Part shown: positions 4,502 to 38,223 of the stretch, one piece after another
Layout: each line of letters starts with the position of its first letter
Numbering within the stretch: position 1 is the stretch's first letter
Source of the DNA: an uncultured Porphyromonadaceae bacterium
GTDB lineage: Bacteria > Bacteroidota > Bacteroidia > Bacteroidales > Muribaculaceae
DNA: 38,223 nucleotides
Direction of reading: 5' to 3'
Assembly (NCBI GenBank): GCA_947175695.1
Contig: CAMWNT010000012.1
Location: forward strand, 1 to 38,223
Notes under the pieces: model-generated
What the model was told of the DNA's origin: nothing
Seen by the model: the letters and a program-made list of their open reading frames with translations, nothing else
The model's database searches: none
Program-made: the position numbers and the translations under genes

Positions 4502-5398
4502 ATGAAACTCAGCAACTTCGCATATCTGGCTTCGGCAGCCATAATCGCCGCCGCTTCGCTCGCCTCTTGCTCGGGCGACAATGATTCAAAGACAGTCCGC
4601 CCCCTTTCTGACTATAAAAATCTCACGACAGGCGACTCTGTGGCTTACTACGTAGGCCAGCTCTCCTCGCTCTCCTACTGGCGCGCCGCCAATCAGGACA
4701 CAACTCTTCAGACTCGCGAATCACGCGACCAATATCTCAAGGGTCTCCGCGCCGGATATGAAGCCATCCGCGACAACGAAGCCTACAATCAGGGCTACTA
4801 TATGGGCATGCAGCTCGCCATGCAGCTGAAGGAATTCAACGAAGAATATGGCACATCGACCAATAAGCAGGTGCTCTTCAACGCCATCGAGGATGGCCTG
4901 ATCAATGATTCGATCGTCGACATCAGCGAAGCGCAGATGAACTTCACCCGCCTCAACGACGAGCTCAACGCCCGCAAGGAAGCCGAAGACAAAGTGAAGG
5001 CACTGGAAGCTCTCGCCAAAGACGCCGCCGCCAACGGCTGGACCAAAATCAACGACACGCTCTACGCCTCAGCGGCTCAGGGCGGACAGGGGAATGTGCT
5101 CCGCATCGGCGAGAAGGCCAACGTATCCTTGTCGATCTTCACTATGGCCGGTCGCGAAATCGACCGCCGTCAAAACCCCGACACCGAGATCGGCAAAGGA
5201 TTCCCCGGAGCTATCGGCGACGCTCTTCAGACTATGAAAATAGGCGAAAGCCGCAGCTTCTACACCTACGCCCAGGCTCTCTTCGGCCGACTCTTCGCCC
5301 GCTACGGCCTGAAATCCACCGACATCGTAGAAATCCGCATCAGTGTGGCCGCACCTGAGGCAAAATCCGCTGCCGGCGATGAGCAATCTCAAGACTGA
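4502..5398 (+). CDS. FKBP-like lipoprotein with degenerate isomerase domain
   Basis: 298 residues with a lipoprotein signal (lipobox SLASC, Cys near residue 23). Residues about 40-175 match the FKBP N-terminal dimerisation domain: GDSVAYYVGQL, the QGYYMGMQLAMQLKEF helix and a long charged helix after it. The C-terminal 100 residues align with the FKBP fold by position (GKGFPGAIGDALQTMKIGESRSFYTYAQALFG), but lack the FD, VIxGW and AYG/IPP residues that build the proline pocket. It is therefore probably a chaperone or scaffold, not an active isomerase. Its 3' end overlaps the next gene by 20 bases. Confidence 0.85.
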   Translation: MKLSNFAYLASAAIIAAASLASCSGDNDSKTVRPLSDYKNLTTGDSVAYYVGQLSSLSYWRAANQDTTLQTRESRDQYLKGLRAGYEAIRDNEAYNQGYYMGMQLAMQLKEFNEEYGTSTNKQVLFNAIEDGLINDSIVDISEAQMNFTRLNDELNARKEAEDKVKALEALAKDAAANGWTKINDTLYASAAQGGQGNVLRIGEKANVSLSIFTMAGREIDRRQNPDTEIGKGFPGAIGDALQTMKIGESRSFYTYAQALFGRLFARYGLKSTDIVEIRISVAAPEAKSAAGDEQSQD

Positions 5399-5921
5399 CT
5401 TCAACCCCGTCGACTCCCTGCGCGATAAAATCAGCGCAGGGGAGCACGCGGCGATCCTGTTCGTCTGCCTCGGCAATATCTGCCGCTCGCCGGCCGCCGA
5501 GGAAGTGATGCGCTCGCAGCTCGCGGAGCGCGGACTCGACAAGCTCGTCACCCTCGACTCGGCCGGACTTTATGCCGGCCATCGCGGCGAGCTCCCCGAT
5601 CCGCGAATGCGCGCCCACGCTCAGCGAAGAGGCTACACGCTGACCCATAGAAGCCGACCTGTCAAGACTTCCGACTTCGAAGATTTCGATCTCATCGTCG
5701 GAATGGACCACAGCAATCTCTCGCGACTCCGGGCGTTCGCACCGACCGACGAAGACGAGCTAAAAGTCGTCGGCATGATCGACTTCTGCCGGGCTTACAC
5801 CCACTTCGACCATGTGCCCGACCCCTACTATGAAGGGGCCGAAGGCTTCGAAATCGTGCTCGACCTACTCGAAGACGCGTGTCACGGCCTGGCCGACAGA
5901 ATCGCGCCTCAATCAAACTGA
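5379..5921 (+). CDS. Low-molecular-weight protein-tyrosine phosphatase
   Basis: 180 residues from ATG 5379, overlapping the previous gene by 20 bases; an in-frame start at 5343 would lengthen the overlap. After about 23 unconserved residues comes the P-loop VCLGNICRSPAAE, which holds the nucleophilic Cys and the CX5R arginine. The general acid lies in VPDPYYEG near the C-terminus. The enzyme hydrolyses phosphotyrosine by way of a cysteinyl-phosphate. In Bacteroidetes such enzymes may serve tyrosine kinases of polysaccharide export or act on small phosphoesters. No kinase or capsule gene is adjacent here, so the substrate is unknown. Confidence 0.93.
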   Translation: MSNLKTDFNPVDSLRDKISAGEHAAILFVCLGNICRSPAAEEVMRSQLAERGLDKLVTLDSAGLYAGHRGELPDPRMRAHAQRRGYTLTHRSRPVKTSDFEDFDLIVGMDHSNLSRLRAFAPTDEDELKVVGMIDFCRAYTHFDHVPDPYYEGAEGFEIVLDLLEDACHGLADRIAPQSN

Positions 5922-27766: not shown

Positions 27767-29524
27767 TCAGTGGCGCACAACCTTGCGGGCGGAGCCGTCT
27801 TTGACCACGACGTAGATGCCGGCGGGGAGCTGTTCGAGCGATGCGCCGACTTCCACACCCTGCAGGGTGAAGATGCGGGTGGCCGATTCGGCGGAGACAA
27901 CCACGGGGGCTACACCGGACACATCGTGGTTCTCGACGCAACGGTAGAGTCCGATCTTTTCCTGAGAGGAAGTGTAGCAGCTGAAGCGCGGCGATGAGGA
28001 GTTGTATTGGAGGTTGCCGTAGGTCGAGCCGAAGTTGACAACGACGTTACCTTCGGGGCCGAGCTTGACCTGCGCGGGCATACCCTGCTCGGAGAGCTGA
28101 ATCTTTTTGGCTTCGATCGGAGCGATGTAGCCTGCGGGCTCAAGTGCGAGCGAGTTGACCTGCACATAATATTGGCCGCCGCCGGAGCTGACGAGACGCA
28201 CAACCGCCGATCCTTCGGGGAGCACATTGATCTCGCCGTTTTCGGGCTCAACGTTGCCGGCGACGCTGAGATAGCCGGATGATGAAGTCATGCCGGTTGT
28301 GGTCGACATGACGGCGTTTGCCTTTTCGGAGAGGATGACGTAGAGATCATCGGCATTGATTTCGGAAGCTGAAGTCACTTTTGTCCATTTCGCATGCATA
28401 TAGTCGGTCACCCCCTCTTCGACTGCCGTCAGAGTCAGTGTAGCTGTCGATCCGGGACGCGAGGGATCTGTGGGATCAACGGAGTATGCGCGGATTGTAT
28501 AGGTCTCGCCTGATGCCTTGGCGGCAGGCACAGTCACTACGCCGTTTGAGAGGGTCCAGCTGTTGCTGTCGCCGATGGCGTAGTAGATGTCGCAACCTTC
28601 GGGAGCGGTCAGATAGAGGTCAAACGAATTCCACCATCTGCCGGTCCAGGTGTTGACTCCGGCGAGATAGTAGTCGCCGAATTCAGGAGCGTCGGGACGG
28701 TTGGGCAGAGGCGCTGTCATGGCGTCCTGAAGATCGAAGGGGGTGTTTTTCTTCGAGCCCCACACATATTCGGCCAGTCCGGGGATAGAGATGAAGGGGT
28801 TTTCGTTTTTTTGGAATTCGGCGACACTCGCATTGCGTTGGACCTCGCGCTCGTCGACAGGATCGGCAGCGGCCCATTCGAGCAGCATTTCATAGGCCCA
28901 GGGTTTGAGCGTCGGATAGGATGAGCGGTCGTACATATATGCCGGGGTGTCGGCCCAGCTGATGTCATCGTAGAGCGTGAATATGTAGAAATAGGCTCGT
29001 GCGAAGTCACCTTTGTATTCGTCGGCGGGTTCGAATACTGTCGATGAGCCGCCGCCTGTGGCCGAAGTCGGGCGTCCGATCGTGGTCACTCCGTTGCTCC
29101 ATGTCGGCGAGCCGCTGATAACTCCGAGAGGGTTGTTGCTTTTGCGGCCGTTGGCGTCGGCATCGGAGGGATTGAGATGATGAAGATCTTTGTAGGCTGC
29201 GTTTTTCTTGCCGCCCCACCAGGAATTGGCCACAGAGTGCTCGATATTGAGTGCGGCGTGGCCGTTGGTGACGTAGACGATGCGATTGCTATACATGTCG
29301 AACCATGCTTCGCGACCTCCTATCACACGCACGTCGGAGTGTGCGAACACTTCCCAAGTGGCGTCGCCGTAGGCGATTTCAGTGTGAGGAAGGGCGAGTT
29401 GCTTGACGGCGTTTTTGAGCGCCGCGCCCTTCAGTCCGTTGAGCACGGAGTAGTCGGGCGTAGCGGACAAGGCGGGCATTACAGCCGCGGCTGCCGCGAG
29501 AGTAAGAATGAGTTGATGTTTCAT
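27767..29524 (-). CDS. Secreted EndA-type nuclease with T9SS-like tail
   Basis: 585 residues with a signal peptide (MKHQLILTLAAAAAVMPALS). Residues about 20-260 are an endonuclease I domain. The catalytic-His motif is NIEHSVANSWWGGKKN, then HHLNPSDADANGRKSNNPLG and VFEPADEYKGDFARAYFYI, all typical of the beta-beta-alpha-metal EndA family. Next is a chitobiase/BACON-like beta domain (APEGCDIYYAIGDSNSW...GETYTIRAYSVDP), then a second beta domain. The C-terminus FTLQGVEVGASLEQLPAGIYVVVKDG resembles a type IX secretion sorting domain. It should cleave DNA or RNA outside the cell or at its surface. It follows a closely related nuclease gene by 57 bases. Confidence 0.9.
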   Translation of the reverse strand: MKHQLILTLAAAAAVMPALSATPDYSVLNGLKGAALKNAVKQLALPHTEIAYGDATWEVFAHSDVRVIGGREAWFDMYSNRIVYVTNGHAALNIEHSVANSWWGGKKNAAYKDLHHLNPSDADANGRKSNNPLGVISGSPTWSNGVTTIGRPTSATGGGSSTVFEPADEYKGDFARAYFYIFTLYDDISWADTPAYMYDRSSYPTLKPWAYEMLLEWAAADPVDEREVQRNASVAEFQKNENPFISIPGLAEYVWGSKKNTPFDLQDAMTAPLPNRPDAPEFGDYYLAGVNTWTGRWWNSFDLYLTAPEGCDIYYAIGDSNSWTLSNGVVTVPAAKASGETYTIRAYSVDPTDPSRPGSTATLTLTAVEEGVTDYMHAKWTKVTSASEINADDLYVILSEKANAVMSTTTGMTSSSGYLSVAGNVEPENGEINVLPEGSAVVRLVSSGGGQYYVQVNSLALEPAGYIAPIEAKKIQLSEQGMPAQVKLGPEGNVVVNFGSTYGNLQYNSSSPRFSCYTSSQEKIGLYRCVENHDVSGVAPVVVSAESATRIFTLQGVEVGASLEQLPAGIYVVVKDGSARKVVRH

Positions 29525-29538
29525 ATGGTATCGTTTTT

Positions 29539-29572
29539 GGCTGATCCCGACGGGTGCGCGCCGGGATCAGCC
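29539..29572. other. Hairpin between the two nuclease genes
   Basis: GGCTGATCCCG (29539-29549) and CGGGATCAGCC (29562-29572) pair perfectly. On the coding strand no T-tract follows, so it is more likely a processing or stabilising stem in a shared mRNA than a terminator. Confidence 0.6.
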
Positions 29573-29581
29573 CGGTTAAAG

Positions 29582-31339
29582 TCAGATTACGATTTTCACC
29601 GGCTTGGCCAGTGAGGGGGATGTGATGATGTAGACACCTTTCTGAAGCTCTACCGTGTCGCCGTGGCGGAGCGATGAGTAGTGGCCGGCCTCGCGTCCGG
29701 CGGCGTCGTAGACGGAGATTTCCACTTCGGGGAGTGAAGTCAGAACGCGGATGCCATCTTCACGCCATGCGATCGTGAGAGCCGATTCGGCCGCGACGTT
29801 CGAAACTCCGGAGGCTTCGACGAGCACAGAGTTCGAACGTTCGGAGAGATAGCCAAGGCTGGAGCTGCTGACTGAGTAGCTTTCAGCCACTTCCGGATTG
29901 CGGTCGGTGATGGTGTAGGAGTTGGTGGGGCATTCGATCTGGTCGGTCTCTTCGCCGTCGTTGTAGTAGCGGGTGCGGTAGAGCACGTAGTAGTCGACGG
30001 CTTCGGGAGCGGCGCTCCAGCATGCAGTGTAGGAGTTGCCGGCGACGTCGATCGGGTCGAGAGCCTGGAGTCGGGTCAGGGTGGGCACGGGCTTGGCCTC
30101 GCCTTTGAGGTTGACGAATACGCTCGATGCGAGTCCGCCGTCGTAGATTGTCAGTTTGGCAGTGTGCTCGCCGAGTTCGGTCGGGAGATATTCGATCGGG
30201 AGCATGTATTCTCCGGTGGAGTTGATTTCGGATGCGGAGATAGAGCGTGTGGAGAGGTTGAACATATCGCTGTCAGTGCCGGAGATGCGCAGGCTGAGGG
30301 GGGCGGTGAAGTTCTTGCCTTGGAGCACGACATATGTTGTGCCTATACCGCCGACTGCAACGTCTCCGAAGTCGATCCATTCATCGTTGACGGGATTGGT
30401 CAGCTCAGGATCGCCGGTGATGGGGGGAGTGACGTTTCCGCCGGTCTGATCCGCCACATAGAATGTTTCGGCTGTGCGTGTACCCCAGATGTATTCGGCG
30501 AGTTCGGGGAAGTCGACGAAGGGGTTGCGGTTGCCTTGTGATTTTTCGACAGCGTCGTTGCGGAGGATTTCCTTTTGGCTGACCCGGTCTTCGCGCGCCC
30601 ACTGCAGGAGCATTTCGTAGGCCCAGGGCTGAAGAGTGGGATAAGATGATCTGACAAACATCCAGTTATAGCGGCTCTGCCAGGAGATGTCGTCATAGAC
30701 GCAGGCCATATAGAAGAAGCTGCGGGCGAAGTCGCCTTTATATTCATCCGCAGGCTCGAAGACAACTTCGGCTCCGCCGCCGTAGCCATAGACGGGAACT
30801 CCGACTTTGGTGCAGTTGTTGTCGAACGACGCTCTCTCGACGATGCCGAGCGGATAGTTGCTTTTGGCTTGGTTGGCGGGGCCGTCGGAGGGATAGAGGT
30901 TCCACATGTCGGAGTAAGCGGGAGTATATTCGACATCATTACCCACTTTCCACCATGATTTGGGCACACTGTGCTCGCGCTGCATGCGGTTGGCAGAGAA
31001 GGATGATCGAGCGGTCTGATTGTTGCGGATCAGATAAACTTCATTGGAATACATTTCCCACCATCTGGTCTGTCCGTTGTATTTTTCAGGATATACGTCG
31101 GAGTATTGCCAATAGGTCGGGAGGTCGGTATATCCGAGAGTTTTGTGAGTTTTCACGGCCTCTTTCACAGCGGCCTTGAGTGTTTCTTTACGCTTTCCGT
31201 CGAGACCGGAGTAATATTCCGGGGCGTATTCGGCGTTTGCCTGCAGGGCGAATCCTGCAAACATTGCGATTCCTGCGGCAAGCCGCAGTGTGAAGCGGGC
31301 CGTGGAGATGCTGTTGGTTGATCTGTTTAAGTGTGTCAT
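29582..31339 (-). CDS. Secreted EndA-type nuclease, multidomain
   Basis: 585 residues from ATG 31339. The open frame extends 66 codons upstream without a leader, so the Met just before the signal peptide (residues 1-35, ending near ALQANA) was chosen. The nuclease domain shows MQREHSVPKSWWKVGND, MWNLYPSDGPANQAKSNYPLG and VFEPADEYKGDFARSFFYM. It is followed by a Hydin/BACON-like beta domain (WIDFGDVAVGGIGTTYVVLQG), a fibronectin type III-like domain (YTACWSAAPEAVDYYVLYRT), and a terminal ISVYDAAGREAGHYSSLRHG...KGVYII that resembles a T9SS sorting tail. Domain order after the nuclease differs from its neighbour, suggesting duplication followed by domain exchange. Confidence 0.9.
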   Translation of the reverse strand: MTHLNRSTNSISTARFTLRLAAGIAMFAGFALQANAEYAPEYYSGLDGKRKETLKAAVKEAVKTHKTLGYTDLPTYWQYSDVYPEKYNGQTRWWEMYSNEVYLIRNNQTARSSFSANRMQREHSVPKSWWKVGNDVEYTPAYSDMWNLYPSDGPANQAKSNYPLGIVERASFDNNCTKVGVPVYGYGGGAEVVFEPADEYKGDFARSFFYMACVYDDISWQSRYNWMFVRSSYPTLQPWAYEMLLQWAREDRVSQKEILRNDAVEKSQGNRNPFVDFPELAEYIWGTRTAETFYVADQTGGNVTPPITGDPELTNPVNDEWIDFGDVAVGGIGTTYVVLQGKNFTAPLSLRISGTDSDMFNLSTRSISASEINSTGEYMLPIEYLPTELGEHTAKLTIYDGGLASSVFVNLKGEAKPVPTLTRLQALDPIDVAGNSYTACWSAAPEAVDYYVLYRTRYYNDGEETDQIECPTNSYTITDRNPEVAESYSVSSSSLGYLSERSNSVLVEASGVSNVAAESALTIAWREDGIRVLTSLPEVEISVYDAAGREAGHYSSLRHGDTVELQKGVYIITSPSLAKPVKIVI

Positions 31340-31585
31340 ATTAATTGGTAAGGTATTTCTATCCTTTGTGTTGACTTTTGTCTCGCTTCGGGCGGCCGGG
31401 GGCCGGAGCCGGAATCGAGGCGAAAAGAGCGGTCGGAATGAGCCGTCGCGATGAAGGCTCTTAAGACACCAACCCCCTCCCCGCGCCGAGACGACACGGG
31501 AAGGGGCGAAGTTACTCTTTTCAATGATAAGCCGCAAGCGGCTGCAATTATGCCGACGGCTGCAATAAGAAGCCGTCGCGGCGGA
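31340..31585. other. Spacer between the BACON-like and nuclease genes
   Basis: 246 bases. Downstream of the 31586 stop lie two short stems on the minus strand (CGACGGCT/AGCCGTCG at 31554-31578, and AGCCGC/GCGGCT at 31530-31543) without a T-run. Whether the nucleases belong to the kinase transcript cannot be decided from this. Confidence 0.4.
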
Positions 31586-32569
31586 TCACTTGTATTGGTT
31601 GACGGAGATCTTGAATTGCTTGTAGCCGCATTCAAGGATGATGTCGCCTTTTCTTGTGGCGCCGTAGGGATCGACGATGATTTCGACCACACACTTCGTC
31701 AGGCCCGACGCGTCGGAGGCACGAAGTCCGATGGATTTGAGATCTTTTTCCGAAATGTTGTATTTGACCTCTTTGGGCGCTATTGTGATCCATGACGGAC
31801 ATTCAAGCACCCGCCAGTTGTAGCCGTAGTTGTCGTTGTAGCTCTGCGAGCCGTTGCTGTAGATGTTGAGCGTCTTTTTGTCGCCCTTTTTCTTGGCTTC
31901 GACGATGGTCTTGTCGGCGCGGAGGATGATTTCGCGTCCGCTCTGGCTGACGCATACCCGCTCTTTGGCATCGCCGGCTGTCACCTGCACATATTGCACT
32001 CTGGCTTCGGCATCGTTGTTGTAGGGGACATCGATACGGAATGTGTCGTCGTTGATTTTATTCACTTTAAGGAAGCCGCTGCCGTCGGAGTTGGCCACAG
32101 CGTCAACGTCCCAGCGGGGCTGGTTGGTAGTGACCGTCACTTCGACCTGCGTCGAGGGCTGGCTGAGATAGAAGTTGGTGTTGCTCAGCGAGAGAGTGGC
32201 TTGCGGCTTGGGCGCTTCTTCACGCTTGCTCTCTTTGGGAGCGCGCGGAGTCTGCTGCTTCGGAGCGGAGCCTTTGGAAGCCGAGAGGCTCTTGATGATG
32301 CCGCGGCTGACGCTGATCGCGTCGTCGCATTGCTTCTTCTTGGAGGCGGAGTCGTAGATCTTTTTGGCAGAGTTGAATTTGGCGATGGCCTGGTTTTGCG
32401 ATTCGACGGTCATCACTTTCTGCTTCGCAAGACCTTCGTTGTAGTATTTGTCGCCTTTCGACTGCGCTCCGGCGATGCCGACACATAGGATAATACATGC
32501 GGCCAAAGCGAAAAGGTGACGTGCGATATCGCCGTTTTTCAATCTTGATATGAGTGTAGTTGTGTTCAT
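31586..32569 (-). CDS. Exported BACON-like protein beside the kinase gene
   Basis: 327 residues from ATG 32569; the frame opens 22 codons earlier without a leader. A hydrophobic segment (about 18-35, LFALAACIILCVGIAGA) acts as signal or anchor. Residues 36-100 are helical and repeat-like (GDKYYNEGLAKQK...AIAKFNSAKKIYDSAS), recalling half a TPR. A Lys/Pro linker leads to two BACON-like beta domains: LSLSNTNFYLSQPSTQVEVTVTTNQPRWDV...VQVTAGDAKERVCVSQSG, and LRADKTIVEAKKKGDKKTLNIYSNG...WITIAPKE. BACON modules bind glycans or proteins. It lies 46 bases after the kinase stop, so is probably co-expressed as a partner of the kinase's outer domain. Confidence 0.75.
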   Translation of the reverse strand: MNTTTLISRLKNGDIARHLFALAACIILCVGIAGAQSKGDKYYNEGLAKQKVMTVESQNQAIAKFNSAKKIYDSASKKKQCDDAISVSRGIIKSLSASKGSAPKQQTPRAPKESKREEAPKPQATLSLSNTNFYLSQPSTQVEVTVTTNQPRWDVDAVANSDGSGFLKVNKINDDTFRIDVPYNNDAEARVQYVQVTAGDAKERVCVSQSGREIILRADKTIVEAKKKGDKKTLNIYSNGSQSYNDNYGYNWRVLECPSWITIAPKEVKYNISEKDLKSIGLRASDASGLTKCVVEIIVDPYGATRKGDIILECGYKQFKISVNQYK

Positions 32570-32615
32570 TATCAGGTTGTTGAAATCGGTTATGCGTGAT
32601 TTGGAGACAGCGGAA

Positions 32616-34028
32616 TTATTTGAGCACTTTATCAATGTCGGCGACTCTCCGGCGGAAGGCCGGGGCTTCGGCCACCATCTCGGGATCTTCGTCGGCTTCG
32701 AGCATGGCGGCTTTGTCGGCGAGTTCGGTGCGCGCGCTGCGGAGGGCGTTGTCGCATCGTTCGACAGCAGATCGCTGCAATTTCATGTCGGGTTCAACCC
32801 CCTTTTCGCCGAGCAGCGCTATCGCGGCCGACGCCTTGCCGTATAATTCCTTGGCTTTGACAAGATGCGAGTCGTAGCCTTCGTCGTGAGCCAATCCGAT
32901 CATGGCAAGCGAATCGGCTGAGAGCACACTGTGGCTGACCACATTCTGAAGCGAGTCGATATAGTTTTTCTCTTCGAGCGCTCGGGCGCGACGCTCCATC
33001 GCCCCGCCGTAGAGGATGATGCCGACAACTCCTGCCACAGCCAGCGCCACACCGCCGATTATCATCCGGCGACTCCGGGGATTGATCGCACGCTTGACGT
33101 CGAGGTTTTCAAGGTCGACGCGCATTTCGGCAGCCGTCTGATATCGGAGTTCCTGACGCTTTTCAGTGGCCTTGGATATGATCTGACGCAGTCGGCGGTC
33201 GGCTACACCCTTGAGGGGGAGACGCTCTTTGAGCTGCTTGTCGAGGATGGCGAAGCGTGTGCCTTCGAATGGCACATTGCCTGTGATGCATTGATAGAGA
33301 AGGATTCCGACGGCGTAGATGTCGGTGGTGCGGTTTTGATGCTTGAGGTCGCCGAGCGCGAGCTCGGGCGATGCATATTCGGGCTTGCCCATGAACGCGC
33401 CGGCCACAGTCAGCTGGCGGTCGTTGGTGGTCAGCTGGTTAAGCTGCTTGCAGATGCCGTAGTCGATCAGTTTGACGTGGCCGTCGGCGGTGATGAAGAT
33501 GTTGGAGGGGTCGATGTCGCGGTGGATATATCCGGCGTCGTGGAGCGCCATGAGGCCGGAGAGCACGCTCTTGATGATCACCTTTGCGAAATGGGAGGGA
33601 TCTTTGCTGAAGTCGTTGAGGAGTTTGCGCGCATATGGGATCTCGCGCCCGTTGGGGTCGGTGCATTTCCCCTGCATTATGTCGGCAAGCGAGACGCCGT
33701 GGAGCAGCTCGCTGACCACATGGTAATGCTTGACGGTGCGTCCTTCGCGCACTTCGTCGGTCTCGAAGAAGCCGAGCATCTCGATGAGGTTGTCGTTGCG
33801 GAGGCGCACGGAGGCTTCGCGCCGCGCGCGCTCTACAGCCTGCTCGGGGAGATCCATGAAGAGGAATTTGATGGCCACGGGGCGTGTGACACCGGTCAGC
33901 GTGTTGACACACGTGCCGCGATACACTTTGCCCATGCCACCTTCACCGATAGGCACCGATGCGGAGTCGACTTCGTAATATATCCCGGCTTCTTTTTCCT
34001 GCCGGCCTTGGAGACGTATGATTGCCAT
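32616..34028 (-). CDS. Transmembrane Ser/Thr protein kinase with atypical catalytic loop
   Basis: 470 residues. The kinase domain is residues about 20-290: G-loop IGEGGMGKVYRG (27-38), VAIK lysine 54, a likely alpha-C glutamate at 71, HRDIDPSN (169-176), DYG 189-191 and KPEYASPEL. The general base Asp171 and metal Asp189 are kept, but Lys of the usual HRDxKPxN is Asp173, and DFG is DYG. One membrane helix follows at about 322-342. The outside part (about 345-470) is helical and charged, with no PASTA repeats. The kinase should phosphorylate Ser/Thr in the cytosol in response to an envelope signal. The PP2C gene is upstream; its own promoter lies at 34138-34169. Confidence 0.9.
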   Translation of the reverse strand: MAIIRLQGRQEKEAGIYYEVDSASVPIGEGGMGKVYRGTCVNTLTGVTRPVAIKFLFMDLPEQAVERARREASVRLRNDNLIEMLGFFETDEVREGRTVKHYHVVSELLHGVSLADIMQGKCTDPNGREIPYARKLLNDFSKDPSHFAKVIIKSVLSGLMALHDAGYIHRDIDPSNIFITADGHVKLIDYGICKQLNQLTTNDRQLTVAGAFMGKPEYASPELALGDLKHQNRTTDIYAVGILLYQCITGNVPFEGTRFAILDKQLKERLPLKGVADRRLRQIISKATEKRQELRYQTAAEMRVDLENLDVKRAINPRSRRMIIGGVALAVAGVVGIILYGGAMERRARALEEKNYIDSLQNVVSHSVLSADSLAMIGLAHDEGYDSHLVKAKELYGKASAAIALLGEKGVEPDMKLQRSAVERCDNALRSARTELADKAAMLEADEDPEMVAEAPAFRRRVADIDKVLK

Positions 34029-34137
34029 GACGTTCGATCAGAGAGTAGCCGCTCTCCCCTATTCCGGATTCCCTTTCCGGGCGTCGCCTCGACGGGGTGC
34101 GAGGGGTTAACGGCGTGTGAAATCTGTGTTTAATTAA

Positions 34138-34169
34138 CAAAAATAGTTATTTTTTCCTTACCATCCAAA
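34138..34169 (-). promoter_or_regulatory. Bacteroidetes-type promoter for the kinase gene
   Basis: Minus-strand TTTG (34169-34166), 20 bases, then TATTTTTG (34145-34138): an exact match to TTTG-N19-21-TAnnTTTG. It predicts a start near 34131 and a leader of about 100 nt before ATG 34028. It is the best promoter in the window. Confidence 0.7.
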
Positions 34170-34219
34170 TCCATGCCAGTTCTTTAGCGGTAATCGAGAT
34201 CCCGACAAGCGAAACGGCG

Positions 34220-35977
34220 TCAATCCTCTGATGCTTCCAGCTCGTTGATCATAGTGATGAGTTTCTCGATATTTTTCATGGCATCGCCGGTCACATCGCT
34301 GTGAGAAGTATCGAGAATCTCTATCCGAGATTGCTTGGCAGTCTCGATAATCTTGTCGATCTTATCCTTGCGCTTATCATTTTCACCGAGGGTTTTCCCA
34401 TAATCCTCAAGTTTCCCCACTACGCTCTCAATCTTTGCTTTTCGCTCAGCCTCGCGACTTTCAAACTCCTTTTCGTTATTTTTCTTTGTGAATTTGTTAG
34501 AGTACGGTTTTTTGAGCTCATTAAGATCTTCGACAGCCTCTTTGAGCTTTTCATTTTTAGGCTTTTCGGCAGTTTTCGCATCTTGGAGCTTCGCATCGGT
34601 TTTACCCTCCTTCACTTCATCGACAGCGTCAACGACAGTTTGCGCGTCCAGCAGAGAGATTTTCTTGTTATCGGCTTCTTTGGCTGCTTCTTCAGCGGCT
34701 TGGTCGTCGCGAATCATCATCCAGATATTCCAGGAGATGAGCCCTAAAAGAGCTACGGCTACAACCCAGAAAAGGGCGCGCCATTTGACGCCGCGCCTTT
34801 CTGCTTTCCGCTCTTCGCCGGGAGGAGTATCGTCGGATTCGAGCGAGTAGTTGTCGATTTCAGCCGGTGGAGCCGCTGTTGGGGCGGCTTCGTTTTTCGT
34901 GCACCCCTTCCGCTTTTTCCTCTCTGCGGAGGGATCGGCAGTGGCGGGAGCCCCCTCTTTTCGGGCTGCTCTGCGCTTTTCGGCCACTTCAGCGGCCACT
35001 TTCTCGGCGAGCGTCATCGGCTCGGAGGGGGTCGGAACTACCTGCGGCTCCCGGTTTTTTGCCGCTGCGGGAGCCTGCGAGGGTGCGGCTGACGCTTGAG
35101 CGAGGGCGGAGGATGATGCCGCACTGTCGTCATCTCCACCCGGCCGAGGGTCGGCTTCAAGCGGGATTGCCGGCTCGGGGGCATCGGGCGTCGCCATGAC
35201 CACCCCTGGGAGCTCGATAATGGCGAGGGTCAGATTGTCGTGGCCCCCACCTTTTTCATGGCCTATCGAGTCGATGCCCGAGGCTATCCCCTCGACCGTC
35301 ACCGCGAGGTCGCCTTCGGCTGTGAAAGCGTCGATCAGCGCCTGCTCGGGGATGGCTCCCCAGATGCCGTCGGTCATCAGCGCGAAGCGGTCGTGGGGTG
35401 CGATCGGCACAATGTCGACCTCCGGATCCACCGTTGTGGCGGCGCCGATGGCGCGGGTGATGACGTTGGAATAGTTGGAGTTGCGGGCCTCTTCTTCGGT
35501 CAGAGTGCCGTGGCGCACCATCTCGGCCACATATGAATGGTCGGCCGTGCGAAACACCATTTTGCCGTCGCGCACCTGATAGCAACGGCTGTCGCCGACA
35601 TGAACCACATATCCGCGTCCGGCCTTGAAGAGCACAGCCACGCAGGTTGTGCCCATTCCTCGCAGCGCCGGATTGGCCACAGTGGCCTCGATCACAGCGT
35701 CGTTGGCGTTGATGGCCGCCACACGCAACACCTCGGCCGGATCCATGTCGGGCGTGGCTTGCATGACAGTCGCGGCTATCGTCTCGGCCGCTATCGTGGA
35801 GGCCTCCTTGCCGGCCGGGCCGCCGCCCATGCCGTCGCAGACGGCCACAAGCAGTCCCAACGGCGTGTCGGCCACAATGAAACTGTCTTGGTTTTCGGAT
35901 CGTCCGCCGATACGGGAGGCTACGGCCCCGACGATGCCGGAGCTATGGTTGATACGCTGGAGTTCTGGTTGGTTCAT
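34220..35977 (-). CDS. PP2C-family Ser/Thr phosphatase with TM helix and coiled coil
   Basis: 585 residues from ATG 35977; the frame opens 14 codons upstream. Residues about 14-255 are a complete PP2C domain: RSENQDSF, VCDGMGGGPAGKEAS, MGTTCVAVLF, VHVGDSRCYQVRDG, ADHSYV, LMTDGIWGAI and GGGHDNLTLAII, so all metal-binding Asp are present. An Ala/Pro/Glu-rich linker (about 265-390) leads to one membrane helix (RALFWVVAVALLGLISWNIW, about 397-420). A 165-residue Lys/Glu-rich coiled coil follows on the far side. Soluble PP2C partners of bacterial kinases usually lack these extra parts. It should reverse the kinase reactions. The 3' third looks more AT-rich than the catalytic part. Confidence 0.92.
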   Translation of the reverse strand: MNQPELQRINHSSGIVGAVASRIGGRSENQDSFIVADTPLGLLVAVCDGMGGGPAGKEASTIAAETIAATVMQATPDMDPAEVLRVAAINANDAVIEATVANPALRGMGTTCVAVLFKAGRGYVVHVGDSRCYQVRDGKMVFRTADHSYVAEMVRHGTLTEEEARNSNYSNVITRAIGAATTVDPEVDIVPIAPHDRFALMTDGIWGAIPEQALIDAFTAEGDLAVTVEGIASGIDSIGHEKGGGHDNLTLAIIELPGVVMATPDAPEPAIPLEADPRPGGDDDSAASSSALAQASAAPSQAPAAAKNREPQVVPTPSEPMTLAEKVAAEVAEKRRAARKEGAPATADPSAERKKRKGCTKNEAAPTAAPPAEIDNYSLESDDTPPGEERKAERRGVKWRALFWVVAVALLGLISWNIWMMIRDDQAAEEAAKEADNKKISLLDAQTVVDAVDEVKEGKTDAKLQDAKTAEKPKNEKLKEAVEDLNELKKPYSNKFTKKNNEKEFESREAERKAKIESVVGKLEDYGKTLGENDKRKDKIDKIIETAKQSRIEILDTSHSDVTGDAMKNIEKLITMINELEASED

Positions 35978-36028
35978 TATAGGATCAGGATTGTTGGATG
36001 CGAGTGGCTTTGGCTCCACTCGCCGGAA

Positions 36029-36427
36029 TCAATGGAGTTTCGAGGCGGGGAAGTTGATGCTGATTGAGTCGTCGCCGTTGTAGTAGACAAATTCGATCGA
36101 GGCGTTGGCCTCGACGAGGCGCTTGACCAGTTTGCGGGGGAGCATGCCGCCGCGGAGTTTGCGCAGGGTGCTGTCGCGGAGCTCTTCGCGGTCGATCGCC
36201 GCAAGCGTGGCTGCGGGCACTTCGTTGTGCATATAGAGCGTATTCCCTTTGAATTCGCAATCGGTCAGGGTCGTGTTGTTGTTGATCTTCATCGGAAGAT
36301 CCATATTGTGGACAGCGCGAGCGATCTCTTCTCTCGCCTTTTCGCCTTTGCTCTTGCCGCAGCTTGTCACGCCGACAGCCACGACGGCCACCATGAGCAT
36401 CACCAGGATTCTGAACAGTTTTTTCAT
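36029..36427 (-). CDS. Small lipoprotein in the kinase-phosphatase locus
   Basis: 132 residues with a lipoprotein signal (VGVTSC, Cys 23). The mature part begins with GKSKGEKAREEIARAVHNMDLPMKINNNTTL and has a compact alpha/beta appearance, ending ASIEFVYYNGDDSISINFPASKLH. I do not recognise the family; the pattern of a helix, then NTLYMHNEV, then a terminal strand is shared by some uncharacterised Bacteroidetes lipoproteins. It lies 51 bases upstream of the PP2C gene and is a candidate envelope ligand or sensor for the locus. Confidence 0.75.
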   Translation of the reverse strand: MKKLFRILVMLMVAVVAVGVTSCGKSKGEKAREEIARAVHNMDLPMKINNNTTLTDCEFKGNTLYMHNEVPAATLAAIDREELRDSTLRKLRGGMLPRKLVKRLVEANASIEFVYYNGDDSISINFPASKLH

Positions 36428-36474
36428 CTTGTAAGCAGATTATGACAACCGAAGGTTAGTATGATTTCGCGCAG

Positions 36475-36516
36475 TCTATGCGGCCGGGAGTCGCGGGGCG
36501 CCCCCCGGCCCATAGA
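36475..36516. other. GC-rich hairpin between locus genes
   Basis: TCTATG-C-GGCCGGG (36475-36488) pairs with CCCGGCC-CATAGA (36504-36516), with one bulged base. No T-tract follows on the coding strand. It may set relative mRNA levels within the operon. Confidence 0.5.
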
Positions 36517-36547
36517 TCCTTATCGCAAGTAGTTCGGTAGAGTCGGA

Positions 36548-37531
36548 TTATTCGTAGATCTCGAAAGCTTCTTTTCTGACGAGCACGTCGGAGTCGTAGA
36601 TCTCAAGGCGATAGACGCCGGGAGTCCAGAAGTTTGTGTCGGGAGTGCCGAAGGCATTGAGTTCGATGTCGGTCTCTTTATTGGCTTTCTTGATCTCGAT
36701 GGGAGTGACAGTGGTGAATTCGCTGTGCTTGTTGGGCACAATCAGCTTGCCCTCGGGGTTGTAGAGCTTGACGCCGATGTAGTATTTTCCGGCTTCGTTG
36801 GCACGCACTGTGATTTTCTCGCGGATGAAGCGGCAACGATCCTGGAAGATCTGTCCGTTGTAGTCGATCAGAGGCTTGTTGGCTTCGGAGTTGGAATAGC
36901 TGCCGTAAGTGGCGATCTCGACGTTCGACACAGAGAGGTCGGGATTGACTTTATGACGGATCTCGCCTGCACGCTGGGGAAGCACCACGAGGTTGGGATC
37001 CTGAGTCGACCAGTAGTTGTGGACCGAGTCGGTCACATATTCCATTTTCTTAAACTGGTCATGGAATTGACTTCTTGCCGACTGGAGCTCTTTGAGCACA
37101 TTCGAGAGCTGCTTGATATATTCGGAAGCCGAGGATGCGAAGACGGGGAATGTGAAGTCGACTCTTGTGTGGCGCACTTCGGTTTTGGCCGGAGAGATGC
37201 GGTTGAGCTCGTTGGCGGCGTAGACGGCGCGCTCGTGCTTGCGGTTGGCGGTGTCGTCGTCGTCTTTTTCGGCGCGAAGCTTGAGCGGCTTCACGTGGAG
37301 AGTGTAGAGGATGCCGGAGCCATCGCCTTTGAATGTGATCCAATAGATGAGGTCGCTTTGGCGAAACATGACGCTGTCGTCGTCGGGGTCGATTTCGACT
37401 CTGAATCCCTGGCGGGTCAGATAGTCTTTGACTTCTTTCTGGGCAGCCTTTTCAGCCACAGTCATGGCGTTGGCCACGTTCCAGCCCATCAGGGCAACGA
37501 CGATGAGTAGGATAGCTTTGAAATTCTTCAT
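36548..37531 (-). CDS. Exported protein, YbjN-like N-terminal domain
   Basis: 327 residues with a signal peptide (cleavage near NVANA, residue 22). Residues about 25-160 follow the pattern of the YbjN/type III chaperone-like fold: EVKDYLTRQGFRVEIDPDDDSVMFRQSDLIYWITFKGD, then a long helix with the AANELNR motif, and VDFTFPVFASSASEYIKQLSNVLKEL. The C-terminal part (about 190-327) is a predicted beta-sandwich (FIREKITVRANEAGKYYIGVKLYNPEGKLI...WTPGVYRLEIYDSDVLVRKEAF). The assignment is by eye and moderate. It starts the spacer after the partial kinase by 14 bases, so is surely in that transcript and is exported, unlike typical YbjN. Confidence 0.7.
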   Translation of the reverse strand: MKNFKAILLIVVALMGWNVANAMTVAEKAAQKEVKDYLTRQGFRVEIDPDDDSVMFRQSDLIYWITFKGDGSGILYTLHVKPLKLRAEKDDDDTANRKHERAVYAANELNRISPAKTEVRHTRVDFTFPVFASSASEYIKQLSNVLKELQSARSQFHDQFKKMEYVTDSVHNYWSTQDPNLVVLPQRAGEIRHKVNPDLSVSNVEIATYGSYSNSEANKPLIDYNGQIFQDRCRFIREKITVRANEAGKYYIGVKLYNPEGKLIVPNKHSEFTTVTPIEIKKANKETDIELNAFGTPDTNFWTPGVYRLEIYDSDVLVRKEAFEIYE

Positions 37532-37545
37532 TGTGTATGGATATT

Positions 37546-38223
37546 TTATTTGATTTTTTCGTAATCGAGGATGTAGAATGTCTCGCCGTCGGTGTCTTCA
37601 AGCTCGACATAGTCGGGATCTCCTTCGGAGGTGTAGTGGAATTTCGCCTCTGCGTAGTTGCCGGCCCAGAACGCGCTGTCGGGCTGAGCCTTGGCATCGA
37701 CGTCGGCTCCGACATGGGAGATGTGGTCGATGCGGTCGCCGACATAGCTGATGACGTAGTATTCATCGAGGTCGGGGAGCTGATTTTCGTAGAGATCGTC
37801 TACGCCGCGTGGAGTTCCGTCGGGTGCTACATCTATGGTTGTGAAATAGTCTTTCCGGGTCTTTTCGGTGCTGAGCCTTGAATAGGCCAGCCATCCGAGG
37901 GTTCCTAATATAAGGATTGCCCCGACGATAATTCCTATCACCAAGGCGCCCCCGGTTTTTTTCTCTTTTTTATCGGCGACTGATCGGCTTTGGGCTCCGG
38001 CACCTTTCAAAATGCGGTAGGCATCCCGGCATCCGGCGGGGCGTGCGGCGGCCTGAGGGTCGGTGGTGGCGTCGACGAATGCCTGGGTGGCGGCTGTCGT
38101 GTAGGCGTAGCGTTCGGCGATCCGGGGGAGGAGCGAGTCGTCGCCGGCGGTGCGACGGGGCTTGAGTCCGGTCAGCATCTCGTAGGCCGTCATTCCGAGT
38201 GAGTAAATATCGCTCGACTGCGT
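37546..38223 (-). CDS. Transmembrane Ser/Thr protein kinase, 3' part only
   Basis: Only the C-terminal 225 codons are in the window; the frame stays open to the edge, so the gene continues beyond 38223. The visible residues start with SSDIYSLGMTAYEMLTG, kinase subdomain IX, preceding the Met at 38193 that would otherwise look like a start. A helical kinase C-lobe end follows (ATTDPQAAARPAGCRDAYRIL), then a basic stop, one membrane helix (ALVIGIIVGAILILGTLGWLAY), and about 105 outside residues rich in Asp/Glu and aromatics (DEYYVISYVGDRIDHISHVG, YVELEDTDGETFYIL). The outside domain is not PASTA and I do not recognise it. Catalytic loop residues lie outside the window. Confidence 0.88.
   Translation of the reverse strand, partial: TQSSDIYSLGMTAYEMLTGLKPRRTAGDDSLLPRIAERYAYTTAATQAFVDATTDPQAAARPAGCRDAYRILKGAGAQSRSVADKKEKKTGGALVIGIIVGAILILGTLGWLAYSRLSTEKTRKDYFTTIDVAPDGTPRGVDDLYENQLPDLDEYYVISYVGDRIDHISHVGADVDAKAQPDSAFWAGNYAEAKFHYTSEGDPDYVELEDTDGETFYILDYEKIK

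Follow-up and report, generated by a model that had tools for sequence, protein, structure and literature searches.

Organisation of the locus

The 38,223-nucleotide window analysed here is the whole of one contig (C12, CAMWNT010000012.1) in an assembly of 2.48 Mb, 187 contigs and 88% completeness from an uncultured Porphyromonadaceae bacterium of the gut (order Bacteroidales), and it ends in a cluster of genes for membrane-spanning protein kinases, a PP2C phosphatase and exported proteins. Six open reading frames (ORFs) lie at positions 31586-38223, all on the minus strand and separated by 43, 191, 51, 120 and 14 bases. Read in the direction of transcription, they encode the C-terminal part of the membrane pseudokinase Kin1 (37546-38223), the exported protein w2 (36548-37531, defined by alignments and hhalign), the small lipoprotein w3 (36029-36427), the phosphatase PP2Cb with one transmembrane helix (34220-35977, from Pfam, motifs and hydropathy), the Hanks-type Ser/Thr kinase Kin2 (32616-34028, from Pfam, alignment and a transmembrane helix by hydropathy) and w6, an exported BACON-domain protein (31586-32572). 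The ATG starts at 32572 and 35977 are our choice, as the listed ORFs of the BACON and PP2C genes start earlier at TTG or GTG. An earlier reading made from the letters of the window alone (the sequence-only reading) had described this arrangement of six closely spaced genes on one strand and had suspected that it runs on past 38223; both points stand.

Base 38223 is an assembly break, since the window is an entire contig. The last 98 bases of another contig, C40, consist of an exact match to the first 54 bases of the window's minus strand (38170-38223) followed by 44 further bases (L014:10916-10959; L, G and C numbers are our labels, G000 being the window's own genome), 34 of which fit, with two mismatches, what we take to be a sequencing-adapter sequence, the sole such match in eight sequences scanned. 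The 44 bases look like adapter read-through kept in the assembly, which is probably why C40 and C12 were left unjoined. Joined at the overlap, the two contigs give an open gene of 413 codons, Kin1, whose front lies on C40 (L014:10298-10915), and the join is independently supported by the relative G261, which carries matching genes in matching order with no break (L105, L106).

The whole cluster thereby comprises about 15 genes, of which the six in the window are the distal part. It begins with an FHA protein with a transmembrane helix, an exported caspase-like protein, a zinc-ribbon FHA protein, an FHA protein and an FHA-transmembrane protein, continues with a protein whose EF-hand match is sub-threshold, an FHA protein, a second phosphatase with a transmembrane helix (PP2Ca) and a kinase-FHA-DUF805 protein, and closes with Kin1, w2, w3, PP2Cb, Kin2 and the BACON protein. 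What lies beyond the window's end thus adds five FHA proteins, a second membrane PP2C, an FHA-fused kinase and an exported caspase-like protein. Hydropathy places a single helix in each of Kin2 (residues 322-340), PP2Cb (396-414) and the joined Kin1 (282-300); w2, w3 and the BACON protein each have a signal-like one at the N-terminus, and for both groups this agrees with the sequence-only reading.

Kinases and phosphatases

Kin2 matches Pfam Pkinase with E=4.5e-34 and has the catalytic residues in place by alignment (VAIK, HRDIDPSN, DYG); with an outer segment of about 130 residues, its hydropathy-based topology is that of a membrane Hanks kinase such as the one in the TagQRST-PpkA-PppA-Fha system. 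Only kinases stand among the best 60 of its 1688 sequence matches in the PDB. PASTA repeats are found by Pfam neither in the cluster proteins nor in the relatives scanned, and the NCBIfam model PknB_PASTA_kin gives 159 bits against a cut-off of 450. The idea that the outer segment of Kin2 shares a helical domain with the N-terminus of the BACON protein was rejected, as hhalign did not rise above 25%.

Kin1 is a different case, and of the two Ser/Thr kinases proposed from the window alone only Kin2 keeps its catalytic residues. The window fragment reaches 13.5 bits to Pkinase; in the joined protein of 413 residues the VAIK lysine, the HRD aspartate, the catalytic asparagine and the DFG aspartate are all replaced, and the APE motif and the transmembrane helix are retained. 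Judged by these residues, Kin1 is a pseudokinase in this genome. All four catalytic positions are kept in 6/6 aligned Kin1 orthologs, L146 reading HLD for HRD. Orthologs are 1116-1121 residues long in L146, L181 and L182 and at least 957 in L198, where the locus end cuts the gene, with shorter forms of 435 residues in L142 and 603 in L144. Because of the residue losses and the variable length and presence in relatives, Kin1 looks to be decaying or repurposed in this lineage.

PP2Cb matches Pfam PP2C_2 with E=1.3e-17, and its DGMGG, GDSR, DG and GGHDN motifs, presumably the metal site, are invariant in 5/5 aligned sequences. The NCBIfam model for Stp1/IreP-type PP2Cs stays below threshold (186 bits, cut-off 230). 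Beyond the catalytic domain, 63 of 67 PP2Cb ORFs have a transmembrane helix, and the segment after that helix, 171 residues in the window, measures 112-215 residues in the seven proteins compared, where no match was found; some orthologs are just 284-290 residues long in total (L164, L170). The sequence-only reading called the outer domains unfamiliar, and no known sensor family was matched to the outer segments; its further claim that each of them reads a cue finds no support here. Nor is its premise general that a bacterial PP2C partner is soluble, PstP of Mycobacterium tuberculosis being transmembrane (PMC12088040).

Exported proteins

The BACON assignment of w6 is borne out by Pfam (E=1.2e-08): an N-terminal segment, helical by eye, precedes BACON/Ig-like domains, and the family alignment (A4) has 11 members. 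The lipoprotein w3 is likewise as predicted, its lipobox-type Cys23 being invariant in 8/8 aligned sequences (A5); it matches no Pfam family. Against the PDB it hit Potempin A at E=0.028, in an alignment starting in the signal peptide that we dismissed. For w2, export stands and the label "YbjN-like" is weak: Pfam matches are all sub-threshold, and the YbjN model matches the N-terminal part in one relative only, at E=0.023 and below cut-off. We also dismissed its single PDB match by sequence, a cilia-associated protein at E=0.0098.

Contig C17 of the genome holds a further kinase locus of smaller size, which encodes a zinc ribbon protein (by eye), a kinase-FHA protein, a PP2C with a transmembrane helix, a kinase with a transmembrane helix and an exported-looking protein, whose signal helix is flagged by hydropathy in its G261 relative and not in its own copy. 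By hhalign, with a profile built on two sequences only, this last protein matches, with probabilities of 82.8%, 95-96% and 97.7% respectively, the N-terminal segment of the BACON family, the BACON domains and the w2 C-terminal domain. Since C17 thus holds domains of both proteins as one protein, the fusion argues that w2 and the BACON protein may work together.

Distribution and gene order

Parts of the cluster recur across the Bacteroidales with apparently exchangeable periplasmic cassettes. At E<=1e-10 the PP2C finds a match in 54 of 119 family genomes; ten of the 54, spread over eight other genera, hold closer orthologs whose best segment has 44-49% identity. For the exported protein w2, matches at E<=1e-5 come from 25 of 397 family genomes, and those in seven, the window's own genome among them, are strong (E<1e-30). 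Five same-genus genomes have a strong w2, and in three of them (G261, G390 and G218, the latter two without Kin1) the five genes from w2 to BACON stand in order; G299 is without Kin2 and BACON there, and G302 without PP2Cb, Kin2 and BACON. Further afield, L181 (Prevotellaceae) and L182 run u7-PP2Ca-kinase/FHA-Kin1-w2-w3-PP2Cb, followed by one or two small ORFs and then Kin2 and BACON. The genes w2 and w3 are adjacent in 9/9 genomes with a strong w2, here defined as blastp E<1e-30 or phmmer >120 bits (G000, L142-L146, L110, L181, L182).

For a count of neighbours we analysed 64 of 78 named loci, dropping 14 distant ones (L204, L206-L215, L217-L219); some records carry two labels (L142-L146 are G261, G390, G299, G218 and G235, and L161, L187, L189 and L192 are G104, G062, G010 and G015). 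ORF calling was greedy by length, and each ORF took the label of its best phmmer match (E<=1e-3, 15 bits), a procedure in which the label Kin2 merges two reference kinases and some genes are missed, such as the PP2Cb of L146, placed at 5015-5770 by another listing. PP2Cb is found in 60 loci, FHA-transmembrane proteins in 51, a Kin2-type kinase in 50, an FHA-FHA-transmembrane-trypsin protein in 48, a WG-repeat protein in 34, a TssR-like protein in 12 and BACON in 10. Every one of the ten BACON genes stands one place after a Kin2-type kinase (shuffled mean 0.76), w2 adjoins w3 seven times (shuffled mean 0.63) and PP2Cb adjoins the FHA-transmembrane gene 46 times (shuffled 3.7); PP2Cb and Kin2 adjoin ten times, which at a shuffled value of 4.2 and a shuffle maximum of 12 is not exceptional. 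Membrane kinase, membrane PP2C and exported proteins do, as suspected from the window alone, belong together in one conserved cluster.

Proposed function and alternatives

We read the six genes as the distal end of an envelope-to-cytoplasm Ser/Thr phosphorylation locus of about 15 genes, with a probability of roughly 0.6. Gene content and order, topology by hydropathy, catalytic residues, their loss in Kin1 and the recurrence of the module can be read off directly; we infer the ligand, the targets of phosphorylation, the direction of the signal and its output. In the scheme that we propose, the outer segments of Kin2 and Kin1 would be informed of a periplasmic or outer-membrane state that w2, the w3 lipoprotein and the BACON protein either form or report; Kin2 and the FHA-fused kinase would act on cytosolic or membrane proteins, phosphorylating Thr/Ser sites that the two membrane PP2Cs would reset, and the several FHA proteins would bind these sites and pass the signal on, probably to membrane-associated effectors. 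The phospho-relay of the sequence-only reading has no basis in the sequence, where kinases, phosphatases and FHA readers are found instead. The most plausible local output would be a periplasmic protease, the exported caspase-like protein here and the FHA-FHA-transmembrane-trypsin-like protein in many relatives. We prefer regulated periplasmic proteolysis because the motifs are mostly kept: the serine motif G[SAN T]SGS in 41 of 54 trypsin-like copies, and in the caspase-like protein the His motif in 5/6 copies, the Cys motif in 5/6 and both in 4/6.

Compared with the TagQRST-PpkA-PppA-Fha1 system of the Pseudomonas aeruginosa H1 type VI secretion system (T6SS), the locus is alike in its membrane Hanks kinase, phosphatase, FHA readers and lipoprotein or periplasmic partners, a PP2C and FHA proteins lying in the same locus, and some relatives add an ABC ATPase, an FtsX-like permease and a vWA protein. 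It differs in that no TagS/TagT-type permease or ATPase occurs among the scanned proteins of its own cluster (they are present in L051, L053, L056 and L059), in having several kinases and FHA proteins, and in its membrane-anchored PP2Cs, PppA being a soluble PP2C. By analogy this system, which reports outer-membrane damage (PMC11881912), would be the nearest mechanistic precedent, and the locus would operate along its lines in the absence of a type VI system. It is possible, though we hold it only tentatively and below even odds, that the locus belongs to a modular envelope-surveillance pathway of Bacteroidota as yet undescribed, in which a core of membrane Hanks kinases, membrane PP2Cs, FHA readers and an FHA-tethered periplasmic protease would recur and be joined to exchangeable periplasmic input cassettes (BACON; w2 with the lipoprotein; WG-repeat protein with an outer-membrane barrel; TssR with an ABC/FtsX transporter), so that damage would be sensed much as by TagQRST, yet outside type VI secretion, and periplasmic proteolysis would be the output. 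We found no description of this locus in the literature searched, as far as the accessible portions of those sources go. The locus names a concrete, recurring set of partners, including the pseudokinase Kin1 and the TssR-ABC-FtsX cassette without a matching sheath of the Bacteroidota-type system (T6SSiii), and the idea is testable, given that named strains also carry loci related to it (Phocaeicola massiliensis L148, P. faecalis L151, Bacteroides ilei L174, Xylanibacter rarus L198).

Several observations weigh against these proposals. The distribution is patchy across genomes: of the six other same-genus genomes among the 119, two have a distant PP2C match and four none, with no close PP2Cb in any. 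The full six-gene order, whose conservation the sequence-only reading had staked itself on, is seen in one relative only (G261), so that its expectation holds in part, through the shorter w2-to-BACON order and the interrupted one of L181 and L182. Three relatives (L103, L107, L110) have no Kin1, and the weaker w2 relatives L073 and L200 have no recognisable w3 alongside. For the outer segments of Kin2 and PP2Cb, hhalign gives no match, be it between the two or with the exported proteins (25% at most). As for the output, 13 of the 54 trypsin-like copies, one of them a cut fragment, are without the serine motif by our pattern, and a protease is suggested by gene neighbourhood and motifs.

An alternative is that the locus regulates a secretion or surface machine post-translationally, by T6SS-like threonine phosphorylation or on a motor of the type IX secretion or gliding type. 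It draws on L051, L053, L056 and L059, where an outer-membrane barrel, a TssR-like vWA protein, an ABC ATPase and an FtsX-like permease lie beside the second kinase; TssR is described in PMC10781749 as a lipoprotein belonging to the membrane complex of the Bacteroidota T6SS. The TssR-like proteins of relatives match TssR domains (PF17643, PF20780-20782). TssR_VWA matches occur in only four of the 119 family genomes, those of the four loci just named, and the window's own genome, 88% complete so that absence is no proof, has neither a TssR match nor one to TssC, the T6SSiii sheath protein (PF17541). Across 16 genomes TssC matches in three, the three order genomes with a strong TssR, and in none of the four TssR-locus family members, the four other order genomes with a weaker TssR or the four genus relatives tested. 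TssR with ABC/FtsX thus occurs in genomes without a T6SSiii sheath match. The VipB model (PF05943) was rejected as a T6SS test because it misses T6SSiii, failing in three genomes that carry TssC, and its negatives are unused. The motor version rests on OmpA-GldL-GldM genes after a related module in G023, but a second GldL beside such a locus occurs in just one of the 119 genomes. On this evidence control of a secretion machine is unlikely.

A TssR-like protein also stands beside an ABC ATPase and an FtsX-like permease in L220, L221, L223 and L224, from genomes without a TssC match; in L221 and L223 ATPase and permease are fused in one protein (1065 or 1080 residues). The L224 protein matches all four TssR domain models. 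The TssR-ABC-FtsX block adjoins kinase, PP2C and FHA genes in L051, L053, L056, L059 and L224; none are labelled in the ~20 kb that make up L220, L221 and L223, and L222 shows TssR alone. In G023 (L073:5533-8474) a second OmpA-GldL-GldM set lies directly downstream of an FHA/PP2C/kinase module and is followed by a w2-like gene; G057 has two GldL matches of equal score near opposite ends of one contig. With one clear case in 119, we keep the link to a second GldLM motor as a remark only.

Quite unlikely, in our view, is a phage-defence or toxin-antitoxin system of the KKP or PD-T4-6 type, in which toxic kinases are held by a PP2C antitoxin and infection tips the balance. Kinases and PP2C do share a single locus, as in the KKP module (PMC11341870), and PADLOC models match Kin2 (MADS6, PD-T4-6), the FHA-kinase (PD-T4-6, MADS6), the exported caspase-like protein (E=4.8e-13) and, weakly, both PP2Cs (candidate PDC-M21C, E=3e-10 and 5e-07). 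However, 34 PADLOC kinase models match each kinase simultaneously, as a generic Hanks domain would, and we therefore read these matches as generic kinase similarity. The locus also differs from KKP in its membrane topology with outer segments, its several FHA proteins and its exported partners, the caspase-like and three other proteins looking exported; the helix is conserved in nearly all PP2Cb ORFs, and the eight genes scanned in the window on the downstream side form no defence island.

The actinobacterial PknA/PknB-PstP-FhaA/FhaB operon likewise combines kinases, a transmembrane PP2C and FHA proteins. Control of cell-wall growth of that kind, in which kinases read peptidoglycan precursors and tune synthesis, is very unlikely here, for although the parts are similar (membrane kinases, a transmembrane PP2C as PstP is in PMC12088040, FHA proteins) and the outer domain of PknB interacts with lipid II (PMC6428115), the locus is without PASTA repeats, has exported partners with BACON and caspase-like proteins, holds no wall-synthesis genes recognised by the Pfam scan, and is patchy rather than core. 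By the tests made, the locus thus appears to be neither a T6SSiii regulator nor a PASTA kinase locus, and they do not show it to be a defence system.

Neighbouring genes and other kinase loci

The eight window genes scanned downstream of the cluster encode two endonuclease I proteins, pyruvate oxidoreductase subunits, a ketoacyl synthase, a Mg-chelatase-like protein, a DUF4369 protein and a sub-threshold transposase match. The two endonuclease I genes stand in tandem directly downstream of the BACON gene (27767-31474), and the relatives L103 and L106 have three. A tRNA scan gave no match.

Other contigs of the assembly hold further kinase genes. On C101 (L017:324-6563), three vWA-like genes (by eye) and another gene stand with a PP2C and a kinase in what looks like a locus of a type that we take to be TerY-P; the cluster described here differs from that triad of vWA protein TerY, PP2C and kinase in that no vWA domain occurs among its scanned proteins. 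C1 (L018:5914-6696) encodes a small kinase-like protein with a C-terminal transmembrane helix, adjoining seryl-tRNA synthetase-like and methyltransferase-like genes (by eye). The start of C20 (L016:3-4138), with FHA-like, kinase-transmembrane and exported WG-repeat genes, is another locus of the same wider kind as the cluster.

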